This document shows, one piece after another, positions 13,090-33,611 of a DNA stretch of 34,113 nt. A program made the translations under genes and the position numbers. A model generated the notes under the pieces. It had not been told where the DNA came from. It worked only from the letters and a program-made list of their open reading frames with translations, and searched no databases. Source of the DNA: a virus; the IMG/VR virus record IMGVR_UViG_3300045119_000053, positions 1 to 34,113 of that record. The stretch is one strand, 5' to 3'. Each line of letters opens with the position of its first letter. The first letter of the stretch is position 1.

Positions 13090-13397
13090 GCTATCGGTTC
13101 GATCAGTAGAGGCCAGCGTCCTTTACGCAACTCAGGGCCTAGAGTTGCCTCTACCAACAACGTGTATGAACCTGCTATGATGTCTAGCTCAGCTCCTGCC
13201 CAGTTGATAAGAATGTTAGGTGCCGTAGCAGCACCAGTGATTCCTGTGTTCTTAGTCGTAACGGGGTTAACTCCTGACTTGTATATCTTGACTACGAACG
13301 TGCCTGAAGAGAAGTCGATTATTGCCCCAGCACTATCCCGCCACGTCAACGGAGTATTGGGGGAGGTTGAACCTCTTGGAATCCTGATCGCTTTCAT
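13086..13397 (-). CDS. Small beta-rich structural protein, possibly fibre-associated
   Basis: A 103-residue protein. LTWRDSAGAIIDFSSGTFVV and LINWAGAELDIIAGSYTLLV suggest a small beta-sandwich like the N-terminal domain of baseplate/upper-fibre proteins of the BppU type. It is the last gene of the fibre-like block between portal and protease. Its start overlaps the stop of the 728-residue repeat protein, so the two are probably co-translated and may assemble together. Exact function is unknown. Confidence 0.6.
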   Translation of the reverse strand: MKAIRIPRGSTSPNTPLTWRDSAGAIIDFSSGTFVVKIYKSGVNPVTTKNTGITGAATAPNILINWAGAELDIIAGSYTLLVEATLGPELRKGRWPLLIEPIA

Positions 13398-15583
13398 TAT
13401 CCCTCCGTCATCGCGTAGGTAAAGACTCCTACGTCAGTCGGTGATTCTTCGGTAAGTGCTGGCGCATATGTTCCTACGTCCACTGGAGACTCTTCAGTTA
13501 CAGATGCTCCACGGTCACTTGTTATTACACCTTTACCATCGGTCCAACCAGCTCCAGCATGAAGGACAAACTGATCTGCTACATCAGACACAACCAACAG
13601 ATCAACTGTTGTACGAACAAGTGCTAGTACAGCACGAGTGGCTACATCAGAAGTGACTAGCGTGTCCGACAAAGTTCTGACGTAGGTAAGAAGTCTTGTC
13701 GCTGTATCACTAGTGACAAGTGTATCAGACGCTGTACGGAAACCGCCACCACCTGTAGATGCAACATCCGAAGTGACAAGCGAATCAGCTGCTGTACGGA
13801 AAAGCCTGAGCCCAGTCGCAACAGTATCCGAAGTCACCAAGGTGTCTACTGTAGCACGGAACAATGCAGGCGCGCGGGTCACCGCATCGCTTACCACAAG
13901 GGTATCGACTACTGTCCGAGATACAGTTAGTAGTCTTGTTGTCGAGTCGGAAGTGACTAGTGCATCAGAGACAGCTGTACTAAGTACAATGTTAGTTGTA
14001 ACAGCGTCCGACGTTACTAGTGAGTCAGATGCACTTCGAGGTTGTCCTCCACCCGTAGCACCTGCAGCACTATCGGAAGTGACTAGACTATCTGCAATCG
14101 TACGGAAAAGGATTGACCCTGTAGTAGTAGCATCGCTAGTGACCAGAGAGTCACTAGTTGTACGACTAAAGGTTAGTGCAGACCTAGTAGCGACGTCAGA
14201 CGTTACTAGTGCATCTGCTGCTGTCCTGGTGAATACTGATGCTCCAGATGCAGCATCAGAAGTCACCAAGGCATCAGCAGTTGTCCTACTGAACGACAGT
14301 GCAGCCCTCGTTGCAGCGTCAGACACTACTAGAGTATCTGACGTAGACCTAGCAACTCCTTGCTGGAAGGTAACCGCATCGCTTGTGACCAAAGTGTCAC
14401 TAGCAGTACGACCGAATACAACATTCCGCGTAGCAGTGTCTGAAACGACTAGCGTATCTGAAACAGTCCGAGGAAGGAAGACCGTTCTACCTTGAGGTCC
14501 AGTGATCCACTTTTCTGTCAGTGAGGCTGATATTGCTACAGGGTTTGCAAGCACTCCGTTGTAGAGCAGATAGTGGCCGACCCACCCGTCCCAGTGCTCG
14601 CTTCCGCTAACGGAACAACCAATCGCCAGTTGCTCCCACTGACTACCTGCGGGATTGCCTGCGGTGATGATCCGCACACCATCAAGCCAAAGCTCCGACG
14701 ATGAACCGTTAAAGATGCCAACGAGGACGTGTGGATTGGTATCAGCCGCAACGCCACTGTCGACCACGTTACCAGCGTAGATCCTCCATGTCTCAGTTGC
14801 GCCACTGGTATCGAGATAGATGGTAGGCTGTTGCGACGTGTTTCCAAGTACCTGACGGTTCCCGAGTGCGATCGTGTCACTCGCACACACTACAACTAGG
14901 GTCACTGGCTGGAACTGATCAGGAGGATCAGCAGTGAGTCGTTGTGCTCCTTGGAAGTCTAGGACAGCAAGTCCGGTTGGAGAAAATCTACCTGTAAATG
15001 GTTGTAGTGTTGATGTTGATGTAACCGACACACCCTGTGAACCAGACTCAGGATTGACCTGGCTGACTCTCCCACCCGACTGTGTGGTCTTCGACACGTC
15101 TGAGAAGTCGAACTCTGTGATAACCGTACCGTAGGCAGAGGCGATGAAGCCTACACCTTCATCTACAACAAGGATGTCAGTTGCAGTTGTTGTCTTGCTC
15201 GCCTGCCCTGTAGCGGCATCACTTGTAACGAGAGCGTCAGTGACTACCTTAAACAGAACTATGCTCTTCGTTGCAGCATCCGAAGTAACAAGAGTATCAG
15301 ATGCTGAACGCCCAAAGGTTAGAGCACCTCTTGTAGCGACATCTGACGTAACAAGACTATCAGAAACAGCTTGCCCCAATACAACCTTAGGCACGGCTGC
15401 GTCGCTAGTGACTAGCGTATCAGAAGCTGAACGACCAAAGACAACATTCTGAGCAGCTACATCAGATGTGACGAGGCTGTCAGCAGCGGTACGGCTGAAT
15501 GTTGATGGTCCACTGCCAGTGAGAACAAACGGAGGGTAGCCATACTTAGGCTTGAATGGCTGCGACCTACCGAGGCGTGCCAT
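13397..15583 (-). CDS. Repeat-containing virion fibre/decoration protein with a LamG-like domain
   Basis: A 728-residue protein. About 21 copies of a roughly 17-21-residue repeat centred on D-[TSA]-L-V-[TV]-S-D-x-[AV]-[TA] occupy residues about 31-143 (six copies, the last degenerate) and about 370-670 (fifteen copies). Between them, about 150-360, is a concanavalin/LamG-like domain (LWLDGVRIITAGNPAGSQWE; WDGWVGHYLLYNGVLANP). The C-terminus carries two 'TEESPxDVGxxxxAxTE' units. The repeats probably form an extended stalk carrying a glycan-binding domain. The gene lies in the head cluster, so a capsid fibre is as likely as a tail fibre. Repeat codons also produce long open antisense frames, which are not genes. 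Confidence 0.8.
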   Translation of the reverse strand: MARLGRSQPFKPKYGYPPFVLTGSGPSTFSRTAADSLVTSDVAAQNVVFGRSASDTLVTSDAAVPKVVLGQAVSDSLVTSDVATRGALTFGRSASDTLVTSDAATKSIVLFKVVTDALVTSDAATGQASKTTTATDILVVDEGVGFIASAYGTVITEFDFSDVSKTTQSGGRVSQVNPESGSQGVSVTSTSTLQPFTGRFSPTGLAVLDFQGAQRLTADPPDQFQPVTLVVVCASDTIALGNRQVLGNTSQQPTIYLDTSGATETWRIYAGNVVDSGVAADTNPHVLVGIFNGSSSELWLDGVRIITAGNPAGSQWEQLAIGCSVSGSEHWDGWVGHYLLYNGVLANPVAISASLTEKWITGPQGRTVFLPRTVSDTLVVSDTATRNVVFGRTASDTLVTSDAVTFQQGVARSTSDTLVVSDAATRAALSFSRTTADALVTSDAASGASVFTRTAADALVTSDVATRSALTFSRTTSDSLVTSDATTTGSILFRTIADSLVTSDSAAGATGGGQPRSASDSLVTSDAVTTNIVLSTAVSDALVTSDSTTRLLTVSRTVVDTLVVSDAVTRAPALFRATVDTLVTSDTVATGLRLFRTAADSLVTSDVASTGGGGFRTASDTLVTSDTATRLLTYVRTLSDTLVTSDVATRAVLALVRTTVDLLVVSDVADQFVLHAGAGWTDGKGVITSDRGASVTEESPVDVGTYAPALTEESPTDVGVFTYAMTEG

Positions 15584-24353: not shown

Positions 24354-24367
24354 GGAAGGGGATAGGG

Positions 24368-24432
24368 GGGGGAGGGGTACCCACCCCCTCCCCCACCTTC
24401 CCTTGTACTCCCCCGCTAGGGGTGGTACAAGG
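24368..24432 (+). other. Two hairpins after winged-helix paralog 1
   Basis: GGGGGAGGGG (24368-24377) pairs with CCCCTCCCCC (24385-24394) in a 10-bp, 7-nt-loop stem. CCTTGTAC (24401-24408) pairs perfectly with GTACAAGG (24425-24432), with CCCC/GGGG inside. Together they fill the gap between the stop at 24353 and the ribosome binding site of the next gene. No T-run follows, so they may stabilise or process the RNA or attenuate expression rather than terminate. Confidence 0.6.
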
Positions 24433-25442: not shown

Positions 25443-25453
25443 TAACGGAAAGG

Positions 25454-25486
25454 AAGGGCACCTCTTCGGAGGTGCCCTTTCTTTTT
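25454..25486 (+). terminator. Strong rho-independent terminator with UUCG loop
   Basis: AAGGGCACCTC (25454-25464), loop TTCG, GAGGTGCCCTT (25469-25479), then TTTCTTTTT-like sequence to 25486. A perfect 11-bp stem with the very stable UUCG tetraloop, 12 bases after the stop of the winged-helix paralog 2. Confidence 0.92.
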
Positions 25487-29849: not shown

Positions 29850-29879
29850 TTGATTCCTTCCTAGAACCTGCTATATCAT
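29850..29879 (+). promoter_or_regulatory. Right-arm promoter P4
   Basis: TTGATT, 18 bases (CCTTCCTAGAACCTGCTA), TATCAT at 29874-29879. The spacer is nearly identical to that of P3. It drives the winged-helix gene at 29917 and begins only five bases after the preceding stop. Confidence 0.85.
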
Positions 29880-29916: not shown

Positions 29917-30216
29917 ATGACTGAAGAGACCTCGGTGGCAGAGGTTTCGATCGAGGACGCCAAGGCGTACCTGGACACACGGCTCTCTGAGCGCGGTGTG
30001 GCTCAGGTGGCTGAGGGTGTCATCAACCCGATCGAGCTCGCCAAGGCCCTCGATGTTCGTCCGCAGATGTTGTACTCCTACATCCGCGACGGTCGCATCG
30101 TTGCACGCAAGACCGTGGACACTCAGAAGCTCGTGTTCGACCTGGACACGGCTCTGGAGTTCGTGGCAAAGCGTCTCACTCGTGAGGCGCAGCGTGCTGC
30201 CAAGGCTGCTGCCTAA
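29917..30216 (+). CDS. Winged-helix-like protein, paralog 3
   Basis: A 99-residue protein, ATG with GAGAGGAGGTG upstream. An acidic N-terminus (SVAEVSIEDAKAYLDTRLSE) is followed by the family core: INPIELAKALDVRPQMLYSY, IRDGRIVARKTVDTQKLVFD, then a helical, basic C-terminus ending REAQRAAKAAA. 'RPQMLYSYIRDGRI' corresponds to 'IPQMVYGYIQSGRI' of paralogs 1 and 2. The Lys/Ala tail may help bind DNA. It is a one-gene unit between promoter P4 and the tRNA-like element. A DNA-binding regulator role is inferred. Confidence 0.78.
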   Translation: MTEETSVAEVSIEDAKAYLDTRLSERGVAQVAEGVINPIELAKALDVRPQMLYSYIRDGRIVARKTVDTQKLVFDLDTALEFVAKRLTREAQRAAKAAA

Positions 30217-30266
30217 CTTGACTCAGACTCGGGGCCCCTGGGGAGCCTGGCAACAGAATCCCCCGC

Positions 30267-30347
30267 CGGAGCGTAGGTAACCTCTCCTAACTGGTTTTCG
30301 GTTGGTTGTACCAGTTAGTGACACGAGTTCAAGTCTCGTGGCTCCGA
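30267..30347 (+). ncRNA. tRNA-like element 1
   Basis: CGGAGC (30267-30272) pairs with GCTCCG (30341-30346). CACGAG-TTCAAGT-CTCGTG (30322-30340) is a perfect T-arm with the canonical TTCRANY-type loop. The two stack directly into a 12-bp helix, as long as a normal acceptor plus T-stem. Between them is no standard D-arm; instead a perfect 9-bp stem CTAACTGGT/ACCAGTTAG (30287-30295/30310-30318) with a 14-nt loop takes the place of an anticodon arm. A discriminator-like A follows; CCA is not encoded. It may be a degenerate tRNA or a tRNA mimic. Confidence 0.55.
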
Positions 30348-30369
30348 CTTCTTTATGTTGGGAGGTGAT

Positions 30370-30666
30370 ATGTTCAAATGTACAGTTGATAACTGTAAGC
30401 GCTCGTTCGACAAGCAACAAGGCCTGTCGATGCACATCATGCGTGCACACGAGAAGAAGGGTGGAGGACGAACAGGCAACAGGAAGAAAGAGCCTGGTAC
30501 TGAGGTAGTCAAGACACGACCTCGGCGGAACGTCACCGCTCAGCAAGACGCAATCATGATCGTGCAACTTGCCTTTCCGAAGGGGATTCCCACTGAGGAC
30601 AGGCAACAGCTTCTGGACGATCTAGATTGGATCGCCCGTACTGGAGAAATCCTCCAAAGGAGGTGA
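30370..30666 (+). CDS. C2H2 zinc-finger protein
   Basis: A 98-residue protein from ATG 30370 with GGGAGGTGAT upstream. A single canonical C2H2 finger lies at the N-terminus: C4-x4-C9-x12-H22-x4-H27 (FKCTVDNCKRSFDKQQGLSM, then HIMRAH). A basic linker (EKKGGGRTGNRKKEPG) is followed by a helical region (…TAQQDAIMIVQLAFPKGIPT…). Such single-finger proteins are frequent in actinophages and probably bind DNA or protein; targets are unknown. The gene lies 23 bases after the tRNA-like element and 2 bases before the next gene. Confidence 0.82.
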   Translation: MFKCTVDNCKRSFDKQQGLSMHIMRAHEKKGGGRTGNRKKEPGTEVVKTRPRRNVTAQQDAIMIVQLAFPKGIPTEDRQQLLDDLDWIARTGEILQRR

Positions 30667-30667
30667 C

Positions 30668-30949
30668 ATGAAACGCAAGGACATTACGTACATCGAATGT
30701 CGTACCTGGGGGCACCAATGGGATACCTTTGCCCCTCTGCAACGTGAGAGAGGCTATGGTACCCAGATCAGCCTTCGGTGCACACGTTGCGCCTGTGAGC
30801 GCTTCGACTGGATCGATAGCAGCGGGGCTCTCAACAGTCGTCAGTACAACTACCCCGACGGCTACAAGATGGCCAAGAACGATCGTCCGAGTCTGGGCGA
30901 TCTTCGTCTCGAACTACTTCACAGGTTGAGGAGGAGCAATGGTTCGTAG
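30668..30949 (+). CDS. Conserved Cys-containing actinophage protein
   Basis: A 93-residue protein, ATG with AAAGGAGGTG upstream. It has C-x(n)-GHQWD at the start (IECRTWGHQWDTFAPLQRER) and C-x2-C-x-C in the middle (LRCTRCACERFDWIDSSGAL), then SRQYNYPDGYKMAKNDRPSL. This is a pattern I recognise from many actinophages ('C..lgHaWe......l.C..Cgt.R.d.id..G....r.Y.YP.gY'). It probably binds zinc. Function is unknown. Confidence 0.8.
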   Translation: MKRKDITYIECRTWGHQWDTFAPLQRERGYGTQISLRCTRCACERFDWIDSSGALNSRQYNYPDGYKMAKNDRPSLGDLRLELLHRLRRSNGS

Positions 30950-31151
30950 ACCAGAACCCAACGAGGTGACGTTCGTCGACGCGAACTTGTATGTTTACGT
31001 CGACATGGACGAAGCCCAGCAATGGGAAGACGAGCACGTCGATCGAGGTATCCTCGAGGAGCTGGAACAGGAACTAGAGCACGGTCTCGAGCTTCTGTTC
31101 GTAGATCTTCGAAAGAACCACCCAACGTTCAGGTTCGAGTTCTGGACATGA
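30939..31151 (+). CDS. Acidic protein of unknown function
   Basis: A 70-residue protein, ATG with GAGGAGC upstream, overlapping both neighbours by a few bases. Sequence: VRRPEPNEVTFVDANLYVYV, DMDEAQQWEDEHVDRGILEE, then a Leu/Glu-rich amphipathic helix LEQELEHGLELLFVDLRKNH. A beta-alpha-beta fold is likely. No family was recognised. Confidence 0.7.
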   Translation: MVRRPEPNEVTFVDANLYVYVDMDEAQQWEDEHVDRGILEELEQELEHGLELLFVDLRKNHPTFRFEFWT

Positions 31152-31399
31152 ACGCGGAAGAGCGTGCCAAGCATCTGCAGATGATGCAGACCCCTGATGA
31201 TTGGCCAGTATGGCCATACCTTCCCATGAAGAGGAAGGCTCCAGGGTGGACTGTCGGGTTCTTGTGTGAGACCGCTAACGTGGTCGAACCTCGGGTGTAC
31301 CTCGGGAACATGTACAGTAGGAAGTCACTCGAGGACATGGAACAAAAGGTGTACGAAGACTTCGAGGCGATCCTCGACGACCTGTGGGTCGTTGATTGA
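31148..31399 (+). CDS. Protein of unknown function
   Basis: An 83-residue protein from ATG 31148, coupled by ATGA. Sequence: NAEERAKHLQMMQTPDDWPV, WPYLPMKRKAPGWTVGFLCE, then a helical C-terminus with RKSLEDMEQKVYEDFEAILD. The 'pddWP.WP.LP.KR' motif is common in small actinophage proteins of unknown role. It ends in a TTGA overlap with the next gene. Confidence 0.72.
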   Translation: MNAEERAKHLQMMQTPDDWPVWPYLPMKRKAPGWTVGFLCETANVVEPRVYLGNMYSRKSLEDMEQKVYEDFEAILDDLWVVD

Positions 31400-31797
31400 A
31401 CGTCGCAGTCGTCACTTGGCGCGTTGCCAAGGACGAGATGACAGCGGGGCAGCTCACTGAGGCAGCTAACTGGGTCTTAGAAGAGAGCTGGAAGGAAAGC
31501 TTCGGTGGCAATATTGAGGAGTACTTTGCTGCTATGCAATCAGGGCAGTTTCCTCACGTCTACTTCACCGACCCTGACTATCCATTCGTCTTTCGTGCTC
31601 GTGGTGGGAACCAGAGCAACGTCTGGATGGGTAGTGAGGAGTTCGCAATTGTCGTAACCGATGAACCGATCACGAAGGAGGAAGCAAACGCCATTCTAGT
31701 GGACTACTACGGGGAGGATGATGAGCGAGGACGATATTATCGACGCCTTGCCCCTTCACCTGCAGAACAAAGTCCTGAAGAGCATTCAGGTCAATGA
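31396..31797 (+). CDS. Protein of unknown function
   Basis: A 133-residue protein; I take TTG 31396 as start (TTGA overlap with the previous stop), since no ATG or GTG gives a better fit. N-terminal part: NVAVVTWRVAKDEMTAGQLT, then EAANWVLEESWKESFGGNIE. The end (…RLAPSPAEQSPEEHSGQ) is Pro/Glu/Ser-rich. A segment FAIVVTDEPITKEEANAILV is probably a beta-alpha unit. No family was recognised. It overlaps the next gene by 77 bases. Confidence 0.62.
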   Translation: MNVAVVTWRVAKDEMTAGQLTEAANWVLEESWKESFGGNIEEYFAAMQSGQFPHVYFTDPDYPFVFRARGGNQSNVWMGSEEFAIVVTDEPITKEEANAILVDYYGEDDERGRYYRRLAPSPAEQSPEEHSGQ

Positions 31798-32071
31798 GGA
31801 CGGAACGGTTCAAAGACGCGCCCCTGAGAGCATACCACAGGGGCACATGGTCAGAGAACCAAATGGTAGCTGGTTCGCGTTCAAACTCGTGCTGGCTGTT
31901 GTTTGGGCTTTTCCGTTTGCTGCTATAGGTGTAGGACTTTGCATTACAGTTATCGGCATACCACTTGGAGTACCAATCATAGTCTTCGGGTGCTTGCCAT
32001 TCAGTCGAACCGTTTACACCTTCGAAAGGAAAAAGGTCGATGCCGACAGACGACGTCGTGGTCTTACCTGA
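31721..32071 (+). CDS. Membrane protein of unknown function
   Basis: A 116-residue protein from ATG 31721 (an adjacent ATG at 31718 is also possible; GGGGAGG precedes both). After a soluble N-terminus (SEDDIIDALPLHLQNKVLKS) come two hydrophobic segments at about 51-90: FAFKLVLAVVWAFPFAAIGV, then GLCITVIGIPLGVPIIVFGC. The end is basic (YTFERKKVDADRRRRGL). The GIPLGVP motif links it to the 29335 gene. It overlaps the gene before by 77 bases and the one after by 32. Confidence 0.68.
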   Translation: MSEDDIIDALPLHLQNKVLKSIQVNEDGTVQRRAPESIPQGHMVREPNGSWFAFKLVLAVVWAFPFAAIGVGLCITVIGIPLGVPIIVFGCLPFSRTVYTFERKKVDADRRRRGLT

Positions 32072-32297
32072 AGGATGTAGTGTAAGCTACAAAGAGCGAG
32101 GACTACAAGACGGAAGCCAGTTTGTTGACTTCCGCCTTACAGTCAATCGTGACCTCGGAGTGGATGGACTCGATCACATCACGTATGTCGAGTTCAGCCA
32201 GGCCAAGAGCTACGACAGCACGTACGATCGCCTGACCAAGAGGGCGTTACAACTTCTGGGCTACGCGGAAACGGACTACATCCGCACGCCAGAATAA
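32040..32297 (+). CDS. Protein of unknown function
   Basis: An 85-residue protein, ATG with AAAGGAAAAAGG upstream. Sequence: PTDDVVVLPEGCSVSYKERG, LQDGSQFVDFRLTVNRDLGV, then DHITYVEFSQAKSYDSTYDR. A beta-rich N-terminus is followed by a helix. No family was recognised. It is the last gene of its unit; a perfect inverted repeat and promoter P5 follow. Confidence 0.68.
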   Translation: MPTDDVVVLPEGCSVSYKERGLQDGSQFVDFRLTVNRDLGVDGLDHITYVEFSQAKSYDSTYDRLTKRALQLLGYAETDYIRTPE

Positions 32298-32300
32298 AAT

Positions 32301-32350
32301 CTGGAAATAAGCGATTTCCAGTTGCTTGTTCCAGGTGGATGCTATATAAT
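32301..32350 (+). promoter_or_regulatory. Right-arm promoter P5 with an upstream dyad
   Basis: TTGCTT (32322-32327), 17 bases (containing CCAGGTGGATGC), TATAAT (32345-32350). Immediately upstream, CTGGAAAT-AAGCG-ATTTCCAG (32301-32321) is a perfect 8-bp inverted repeat that abuts the -35 hexamer, a good place for a repressor or activator; it may also serve as the terminator of the preceding gene. The right half (ATTTCCA before the -35) is also present at P6. Confidence 0.82.
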
Positions 32351-32392
32351 CAGAGGTAAGAACAAAAACACTAAACCACAAAGGAGAATGAA

Positions 32393-32791
32393 ATGCCTGA
32401 CCAGAACATGAAGGGCAAGGCCGAGGACAAGGCTGCAGAAGCCCCGGTGGCAGAAGAGACTGCGGAAGCGGCTCCGGCTGCGGAAGTGAAGCCCAAGACC
32501 ACGAAGACGCCTGCCGGTGAAGGCAACGTCGCGCCGGTCGAGTTCGCTAAGGAGCTTTCCAAGGCTCGCGGCGAAGTCGTGCCTCCGCAGATGGTCTACG
32601 GCTACCTCAAGAACATGAAGGACTTCCCCAAGGTGGATCGTGGTGAGGGCGTTGTTCCTCAGATCGTGATCCCGCTTGCGGAGGGGCTCGCGTACCTTGA
32701 GAGCAAGGCGAAGGAGAAGGCAGAGAAGGCTGCTGCGAAGGCAGCTGCTGCTCCGGCTCCTGCTCCGGAAGAGGCTTCGGCTAACGCCTGA
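32393..32791 (+). CDS. Winged-helix-like protein with Ala/Lys/Pro tails, paralog 4
   Basis: A 132-residue protein, ATG with AAAGGAG upstream. N-terminal ~45 residues are Ala/Glu/Lys/Pro-rich and disordered (…AAPAAEVKPKTTKTPAGEGN…). The core VAPVEFAKELSKARGEVVPP, then QMVYGYLKNMKDFPKVDRGE, aligns with 'SPYKFAK…IPQMVYGYI' of paralogs 1-2. A long Ala/Lys helix (AKEKAEKAAAKAAAAPAPAP) ends it, resembling the C-terminus of paralog 3. It is a one-gene unit between promoter P5 and tRNA-like element 2. A DNA-binding, possibly nucleoid-associated, role is inferred. Confidence 0.75.
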   Translation: MPDQNMKGKAEDKAAEAPVAEETAEAAPAAEVKPKTTKTPAGEGNVAPVEFAKELSKARGEVVPPQMVYGYLKNMKDFPKVDRGEGVVPQIVIPLAEGLAYLESKAKEKAEKAAAKAAAAPAPAPEEASANA

Positions 32792-32802
32792 GTTGCAAGT
32801 TC

Positions 32803-32850
32803 GGGGGGAAAGGTGAAAGGCCTGCACCGGGTTCGAGTCCCGGCCCTCCA
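32803..32850 (+). ncRNA. tRNA-like element 2 (minihelix)
   Basis: CCGGG-TTCGAGT-CCCGG (32827-32843) is a perfect T-arm with consensus loop. GGGGGG (32803-32808) pairs with CCCTCC (32844-32849) with one G-U, stacking directly on the T-stem into an 11-bp helix, followed by a discriminator-like A. Only 18 bases separate the two 5' arms, so D and anticodon arms are absent. It starts 12 bases after the stop of winged-helix paralog 4, the same context as element 1. The T-arm half also resembles the 3' end of a host tRNA, so a remnant attachment site is an alternative. Confidence 0.5.
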
Positions 32851-32852
32851 CT

Positions 32853-32942
32853 GGAAAGCCTCTGGTGTCTTTCTTACAACACACTCTCATAGTACCCACC
32901 GTCGTGGCAGTGTGATTTGACAGATCGTACCAGGGGCTTTCC
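32853..32942 (+). ncRNA. Long hairpin RNA downstream of tRNA-like element 2
   Basis: GGAAAGCCTCTGGT (32853-32866) pairs with ACCAGGGGCTTTCC (32929-32942), 14 bp with one G-U. Inside, CACACT (32880-32885) pairs with AGTGTG (32909-32914), and CCAC-CGTC-GTGG (32896-32907) caps the structure. The whole element lies in non-coding DNA between element 2 and promoter P6. Only three bases separate it from element 2, so the two may be one RNA. No T-run follows directly. Confidence 0.55.
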
Positions 32943-33022: not shown

Positions 33023-33250
33023 TTGGTTGCGCTCAATCTAACCGACGAGCAATGCGGATATTTGAAAGATGTCCTGGAATGGTGGTTAGAGGACTTTGAA
33101 CAAGCGACCGAAGATGTTATTAAGGACCCATCAACAGAGACGCCCGAAGAGATGTTGGATGCAGTGAGGGTGATGTACCATCTCTTTGAAATGACTCAGG
33201 AGATAAAGGAGCAGTTAGATGGCAATACCAGCCCTCTACCAACATTGTGA
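33023..33250 (+). CDS. Protein of unknown function, helical
   Basis: A 75-residue acidic protein; TTG 33023 is the best start, with AGAAGGGA upstream. Sequence: VALNLTDEQCGYLKDVLEWW, LEDFEQATEDVIKDPSTETP, then EEMLDAVRVMYHLFEMTQEI. It is almost all helix, similar in outline to small actinophage proteins of the 'l.lsdeqa..L...L...' kind. No function can be assigned. It overlaps the next gene by 32 bases. Confidence 0.68.
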   Translation: MVALNLTDEQCGYLKDVLEWWLEDFEQATEDVIKDPSTETPEEMLDAVRVMYHLFEMTQEIKEQLDGNTSPLPTL

Positions 33251-33611
33251 GACCGTCTACGATGCGATGGAAGAGAACTCTTCCACAGTACAAGTAGAAG
33301 GTCAACCAACAGTTGTGTATGAAGGATTCCTTACTAAGTTGGTAAGGGATGTACATCTGCCATCGCCTTACTACACGTTCGTCACCAACGCTCTTCAATC
33401 CATGGGTTGCATTCAGCAGCTCAAGCGGGGTGGCGGTAGTACTCCAAGTCAGTGGATTCTTCGTTACAAGCCTACGTTCGAACTTTTCGAAGCGCGGGCT
33501 ACGGACACTTACATGAAGCAGCACGACAAGACCGCGATCCTGACTCAACACTTGAAGGATCTGAACAACCGACTTCTAGTAGTGGAGGAACGTCTTGGCA
33601 TCTCTGGATGA
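33219..33611 (+). CDS. Protein with possible winged-helix domain
   Basis: A 130-residue protein, ATG with AAAGGAG upstream. The first 90 residues (…QPTVVYEGFLTKLVRDVHLP…YYTFVTNALQSMGCIQQLKR…) show a helix-turn-helix-like order ending in a 'lk.GG......w.l' wing. The C-terminus (ILTQHLKDLNNRLLVVEERL) is a coiled coil, suggesting dimers. This is like small actinophage regulators, but the family was not recognised. It overlaps the next gene by 17 bases. Confidence 0.7.
   Translation: MAIPALYQHCETVYDAMEENSSTVQVEGQPTVVYEGFLTKLVRDVHLPSPYYTFVTNALQSMGCIQQLKRGGGSTPSQWILRYKPTFELFEARATDTYMKQHDKTAILTQHLKDLNNRLLVVEERLGISG

Follow-up and report, generated by a model that had tools for sequence, protein, structure and literature searches.

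In mitochondrial transcripts, tRNAs located between genes are excised by RNase P and RNase Z, and the mRNAs are thereby freed (PMC8601606). RNase P measures and cuts a domain made up of the acceptor stem stacked on the T-arm, the T-loop, and the R-C end (PMC4919913; PMC11143913), and its AT1-type model substrates are hairpins consisting of the acceptor stem, T stem, and T-loop (PMC11143913). Non-tRNA targets of RNase P include M3 RNA, the C4 RNA of P1/P7, T4 gene 32 mRNA, and E. coli polycistronic mRNAs (PMC11143913). tmRNA has only the upper half of a tRNA and is processed by RNase P (PMC3985003), and tRNA gene fragments comprising the T-arm and the 3' strand of the acceptor are found at integration sites (PMC9897764).

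The phage elements described here resemble mitochondrial tRNA punctuation in being tRNA-shaped units between genes, but they occur in DNA phages, are non-decoding, and have the top half only. They share the acceptor/T-arm domain of the AT1-type substrates, which are synthetic, whereas the phage elements are natural, stand in arrays, and contain a short connector. The known phage and mRNA substrates of RNase P are single cases, whereas the elements here form a repeated intercistronic family, a distinction drawn from descriptions of those substrates rather than from their sequences. Unlike tmRNA, the elements have no long body or tag frame, measure 39-112 nt, and receive no Rfam or ARAGORN call; unlike integration-site fragments, they possess both acceptor strands and occupy many sites per genome.

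Two tRNA-like elements in the window

The window, i.e., the whole 34,113-nt stretch of DNA analysed, belongs to an IMG/VR virus record and is probably a fragment; the genome is that of an uncultured, actinophage-like virus whose terminase shares 39% identity with its counterpart in Arthrobacter phage Wollypog. In a protein of 728 aa encoded at 13397-15583 (-), a short repeat resembling (S/T)DTLVTSDAAT recurs many times, and a tail or adhesion function is probable. The features around the two elements, E1 and E2, were as follows.

29850..29879, + strand: promoter-like site TTGATT-18-TATCAT, 5' of winged-helix gene 1 (consensus match only)
29917..30216, + strand: winged-helix/MerR-like gene 1, VNPI subfamily (HTH_17 E=0.001, below cut-off)
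30267..30347, + strand: E1, tRNA-like RNA with a 6-bp acceptor, a 6-bp T-arm, non-tRNA middle arms, and A73
30355..30666, + strand: next gene, 103 aa, weak C2H2 zinc-finger match, starting 8 nt past E1
32322..32350, + strand: promoter-like site TTGCTT-17-TATAAT, 5' of winged-helix gene 2 (identified by eye; absent from a stricter scan)
32393..32791, + strand: winged-helix gene 2, VTP subfamily
32803..32850, + strand: E2, mini tRNA-like RNA with a 6-bp acceptor, a 5-bp T-arm, an 18-nt connector, and A73
32849..32867, + strand: small hairpin directly 3' of E2, as in the arrays described below; T-rich, no T-run
33219..33611, + strand: p130, conserved syntenic gene used for collecting relatives

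A preliminary description of this DNA had reported two elements in which a perfect T-arm is stacked on an acceptor-like stem, and this was confirmed by reading and folding. In E1, the acceptor strands (CGGAGC, 30267-30272; GCTCCG, 30341-30346) abut a 6-bp T stem (30322-30327/30335-30340; loop TTCAAGT), giving a helix of 6+6 = 12 bp that is followed by A30347 and C30348 at the positions of A73 and C74. E2 pairs GGGGGG (32803-32808) with CCCTCC (32844-32849) and has the T stem CCGGG/CCCGG with the loop TTCGAGT; its stacked helix is 6+5 = 11 bp, and A32850 and C32851 correspond to A73 and C74. Both elements therefore have the shape of an RNase P substrate (a helix of ~12 bp formed by the acceptor and T-arm, with R73-C74). 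E1 starts 50 nt past the stop of winged-helix gene 1 (30216), as originally stated, and E2 starts 11 nt past that of gene 2 (32791), where 12 had been given.

The middle parts of the elements differ from those of tRNAs. In the predicted fold of E1, a four-way junction, the middle consists of one short hairpin and one long 8-9 bp arm that carries a ~14-nt loop (folding energy z -2.4). The 18-nt connector of E2 contains a tandem GAAAGGT/GAAAGGC, and its folding energy alone was unexceptional (z -0.02), since E2 is short and GC-rich. Both elements share with tRNA (RF00005) the top half, an acceptor stem stacked on a T-arm with a TTCRANN loop, whereas the D arm, the 7-nt anticodon loop, and a score over the cut-off were not detected in either with ARAGORN and RF00005, in agreement with the reported absence of ordinary D and anticodon arms. 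ARAGORN and Rfam at the gathering score made no call on E1 or E2, and a permissive Rfam threshold returned chance matches only; a below-threshold alpha_tmRNA match covered 30151-30267, off E1 itself. Neither a tag frame nor a tmRNA call from Rfam or ARAGORN was obtained for E1 or E2. A G3-U70 alanine identity was noticed by eye in E2 and in a further two long elements, too few to carry meaning.

T-arms of this quality are expected by chance ~3.65 times per 1.15 Mb of shuffled sequence, or ~0.1 times per window; two were observed in the window, each in the sense orientation and located 3' of a winged-helix gene. An intrinsic terminator (GC hairpin and T-run) was not found at E1, and at E2 there is just the weak T-rich hairpin downstream, which could itself end transcription. 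The origin of the elements as an attP/tRNA-gene fragment was considered and rejected: the 25-nt 3' half of E2 had no exact match to 84,980 genomes, and the 3' half of E1 had none in a search of viral contigs.

tRNA-like elements in related uncultured phages

Relatives of the window were gathered using winged-helix profiles and the syntenic protein p130, which yielded 28 further contigs (full sequences, except for one 87-kb contig that was used in part), and the T-arm survey covered the resulting 29 contigs, totalling 1.15 Mb. No relatives of p130 or of winged-helix proteins of this kind were found among annotated phages, nor any of p130 in bacterial genomes. The core gene order across the clade is winged-helix gene, RNA site, p130, and helicase, and the RNA site is occupied, depending on the phage, by tRNA-like RNAs, true tRNAs, terminators, or long hairpins.

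The T-arm pattern (GTTCRANNC, 5/5 stem) was observed 51 times versus 3.65 in shuffles, and ARAGORN left 34 of the 51 uncalled as tRNAs. As 6/7 acceptor pairing over a 100-nt span arises by chance in ~38% of cases and is too loose a test, 7/7 and fixed-register tests were used. A 7/7 acceptor was present for 17 of the 34 uncalled T-arms compared with 1.4 (maximum 6) when upstream sequences were swapped. R-C, which was outside the search criteria, followed the acceptor in 30 of the 34, and the few T-arms lacking it are about as many as the chance T-arms expected. Approximately 28 elements combine an acceptor stem and T-arm with D and anticodon arms that are absent or atypical. These elements are 39-112 nt long and lie between same-strand genes, many of them 6-18 nt past a stop codon; a few coincide in part with ORF calls that are short or have poor support.

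E1 resembles the clade elements with four-way folds (contigs G004, G006, G008, and G001/G002). In the orthologous long elements of G001 and G002, the top half is conserved and the middle sequence has diverged, with one arm preserved through two compensatory changes. A D-loop-like GGYR motif in the connectors was significant against mononucleotide shuffles but not against dinucleotide shuffles, and it is thus merely suggestive.

The elements might be decaying tRNA genes, with the site behind the winged-helix genes being a tRNA locus of the clade and E1 and E2 its functionless remnants. True tRNAs do occupy the same sites in relatives (tRNA-Leu in G012, tRNA-Lys in G006, and others in G019, G026, and G027), and the long forms of G015 and G018 retain a normal D arm while the anticodon arm is lacking or enlarged, which links the long forms to tRNAs. 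However, the top halves are perfectly paired despite differing sequences, and it is the middle that has been lost. The converse case, intact D and anticodon arms with a broken top half, was not found, although this is a weak test as the pattern recovered just 4 of 16 tRNAs.

Other RNAs were noted in the clade. Putative stop-codon suppressor tRNAs have the anticodon CTA, with two in G027 (L121 16236-16467), or TTA in G028 (L125; G028 64411-64491). A long hairpin with the internal motif GTACCAGA ... CCGAGGAAAG/C ... lies 3' of a winged-helix gene in G001 (L015 18719-18855), G002 (L018 6511-6640), and G022 (L112 9061-9200), and possibly represents a separate conserved RNA family.

Arrays in cultured phages and covariation

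When 12 cultured phages (820 kb) were scanned as a control, arrays turned up in the mycobacteriophages Papyrus, Indlulamithi, and Konstantine; the others had few or no T-arm elements outside tRNAs. In the early operons of these three phages, nearly every gene gap contains a ~40-nt element, none of which is annotated in the respective records. The layout is a stop codon, usually 5-15 nt, a 5-bp acceptor strand, a connector of ~11 nt (ACTGGCAGACA, AACGGTTTTCG, and GATGGTCGTAG), a 6-bp T stem with its T-loop, the second acceptor strand, R-C, a small hairpin, and a ribosome-binding site.

For 33 array elements picked solely by T-loop and intergenic position, the acceptor was paired 5/5 in 30 (swapped control: mean 5.2, maximum 12), and all 33 ended in RC. 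In their alignment, 90% of the cells were paired; the covariation was 0.697 versus 0.173 after shuffling (sd 0.023), with 121 double changes versus 41.6, and the signal collapsed when the pairing partner was slid by one column. Several pair types occurred at 10 of the 11 pairs across three phage genera. The alignment cells are not independent events because elements of the same phage may share ancestry by duplication. The acceptor and T stem of this mini family thus underwent compensatory changes, and their pairing is under selection irrespective of the sequence. Covariation had been put forward as the check on the elements; it is strong for the mini type in cultured phages, whereas E1 and E2 lack close homologues.

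Covariation in the 33 array elements and the recurrence of a common architecture among unrelated phages both argue against tRNA decay, which we regard as improbable; for the mini family, the simple degenerate-tRNA reading raised earlier is already disfavoured.

Occurrence of the mini family and placement of E1 and E2

A covariance model (R1) built from the 33 array elements found nine elements in Streptomyces phage Joe, which was outside the building set, and mini elements in the clade contigs G008 and G009 (47.1 and 46.1 bits). A BLAST search with a 58-nt Konstantine copy matched 495 places in 141 phage records, of which Streptomyces phages account for 113, Mycobacterium phages for 26, and Microbacterium phages for 2, and the matches in 29 of 30 sampled records lay outside annotated features. 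The mini RNA family therefore exists, is enriched, covaries, and recurs across phage genera, and its status as an RNA family is well supported. It appears to be an undescribed, widespread group of cut-down tRNA mimics that retain the top half only: no description of such elements was found in the literature searched, and the phage Joe paper mentions neither tRNA nor intergenic structures. Sequenced phages of Streptomyces and Mycobacterium, well over a hundred in number, carry between their genes a structured RNA element that is missing from their annotation, Rfam, and the literature searched.

The model matched E2 with a modest score of 21.4 bits (E=0.005, E-values being rough) and placed its acceptor in a different register. 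The E2 connector is longer than that of the family (18 vs 11 nt); in our own reading, it looks like the connector of the family (AAAGGCCTGCA vs AAAGGCATACA) with a tandem duplicate of 7 nt in front. Together with the model match, the intergenic position close behind a stop and the A-C end support the assignment of E2 to the mini family, albeit more weakly than for the array elements. For E1, the T-arm alone matched (12.2 bits, E=0.88), and no homologues were found. E1 is best explained as a longer, cloverleaf-like relative from the uncultured clade, grouped with the long elements outside the mini family.

Proposed cutting between genes

We consider E1 and E2 to be intercistronic mimics of the tRNA top half that serve as cutting signals for RNase P and RNase Z, with a probability of roughly 60% for this reading as a whole. 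Each element, with its 11-12 bp stack of acceptor stem and T-arm, TTCRANN T-loop, R-C end, and no decoding half, would be co-transcribed with the upstream gene. Host RNase P would recognise the top half and cut at the element, and RNase Z would probably cut on its 3' side. Cutting just past the upstream stop codon would part the two mRNAs, and the small hairpin behind the element would come to lie at the 5' end of the downstream one. E2 would correspond to the mini family arrayed between the early genes of mycobacteriophages and Streptomyces phages.

The placement right past stops, with one element per gap, suggests cutting between genes. We infer the transcription and cleavage of the elements, the enzymes involved, and the regulatory purpose from such features, and the cutting mechanism, like the function of E1, is plausible only. 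A role as processing signals, one of the options listed in the preliminary description, is the best explanation and fits the pattern of T-arm and acceptor only across phages. A point against it is that the elements encode RC only, not RCCA.

Positions right behind stop codons would also suit protectors of mRNA 3' ends. Viral tRNA-like 3' ends are known to block exonucleases in this manner, and a stable tRNA-like 3' end could do so here if RNase Z (with CCA addition) acted and RNase P did not. The elements start right past stops and end in A-C at the expected RNase Z cut. However, they are internal to operons, and a full acceptor and T-arm with no leader constraint is also a minimal RNase P substrate, so that cleavage on the 5' side is expected. 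We therefore judge 3'-end protection unlikely. Several copies per genome could instead release many excised tRNA-like molecules acting in trans as free small RNAs, e.g., decoys for host enzymes that process or target tRNAs. A decoy would need neither a position tied to gene boundaries nor the limit of one per gap, and we give this explanation little credence.

Returning to cutting signals, there is an even chance, in our estimate, that a dedicated family of tRNA minihelices lacking the anticodon has arisen in actinophages for this use, one behind almost every early gene, with host RNase P and RNase Z as the mRNA splitter, E2 as a member, and E1 as a cloverleaf-like relative. If RNase P cuts the elements, tRNA punctuation, known mainly from mitochondria, would organise early gene expression in phages, and phages would supply natural minimal RNase P substrates.

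Association with winged-helix genes

The two elements of the window had been proposed to form a module with the preceding winged-helix genes. Such a gene lies directly upstream of 9 of the 28 clade elements versus 0.6 expected, figures that are approximate since they rest on greedy ORF calls in contigs selected for these genes. The enrichment stands, but its generality does not: behind the other two winged-helix paralogs of the window stand a G-rich hairpin and a classical intrinsic terminator (24354-24414 and 25446-25485), and nearly all genes of the arrays in the cultured phages have an element behind them. The module with a winged-helix gene is enriched but is not the rule.

The promoter-like site at 29850 is a variant of a motif repeated within the window (26146, 27784, and 29850), CTTGATT(N)CTTCCTAG(A/G)ACCTGC(T/A)ATATAAT, which precedes several early operons. 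In Indlulamithi (L180 10081-10945), a true tRNA-Gln lies 39 nt behind a gene annotated as MerR-like helix-turn-helix, an order shared with the clade of the window.
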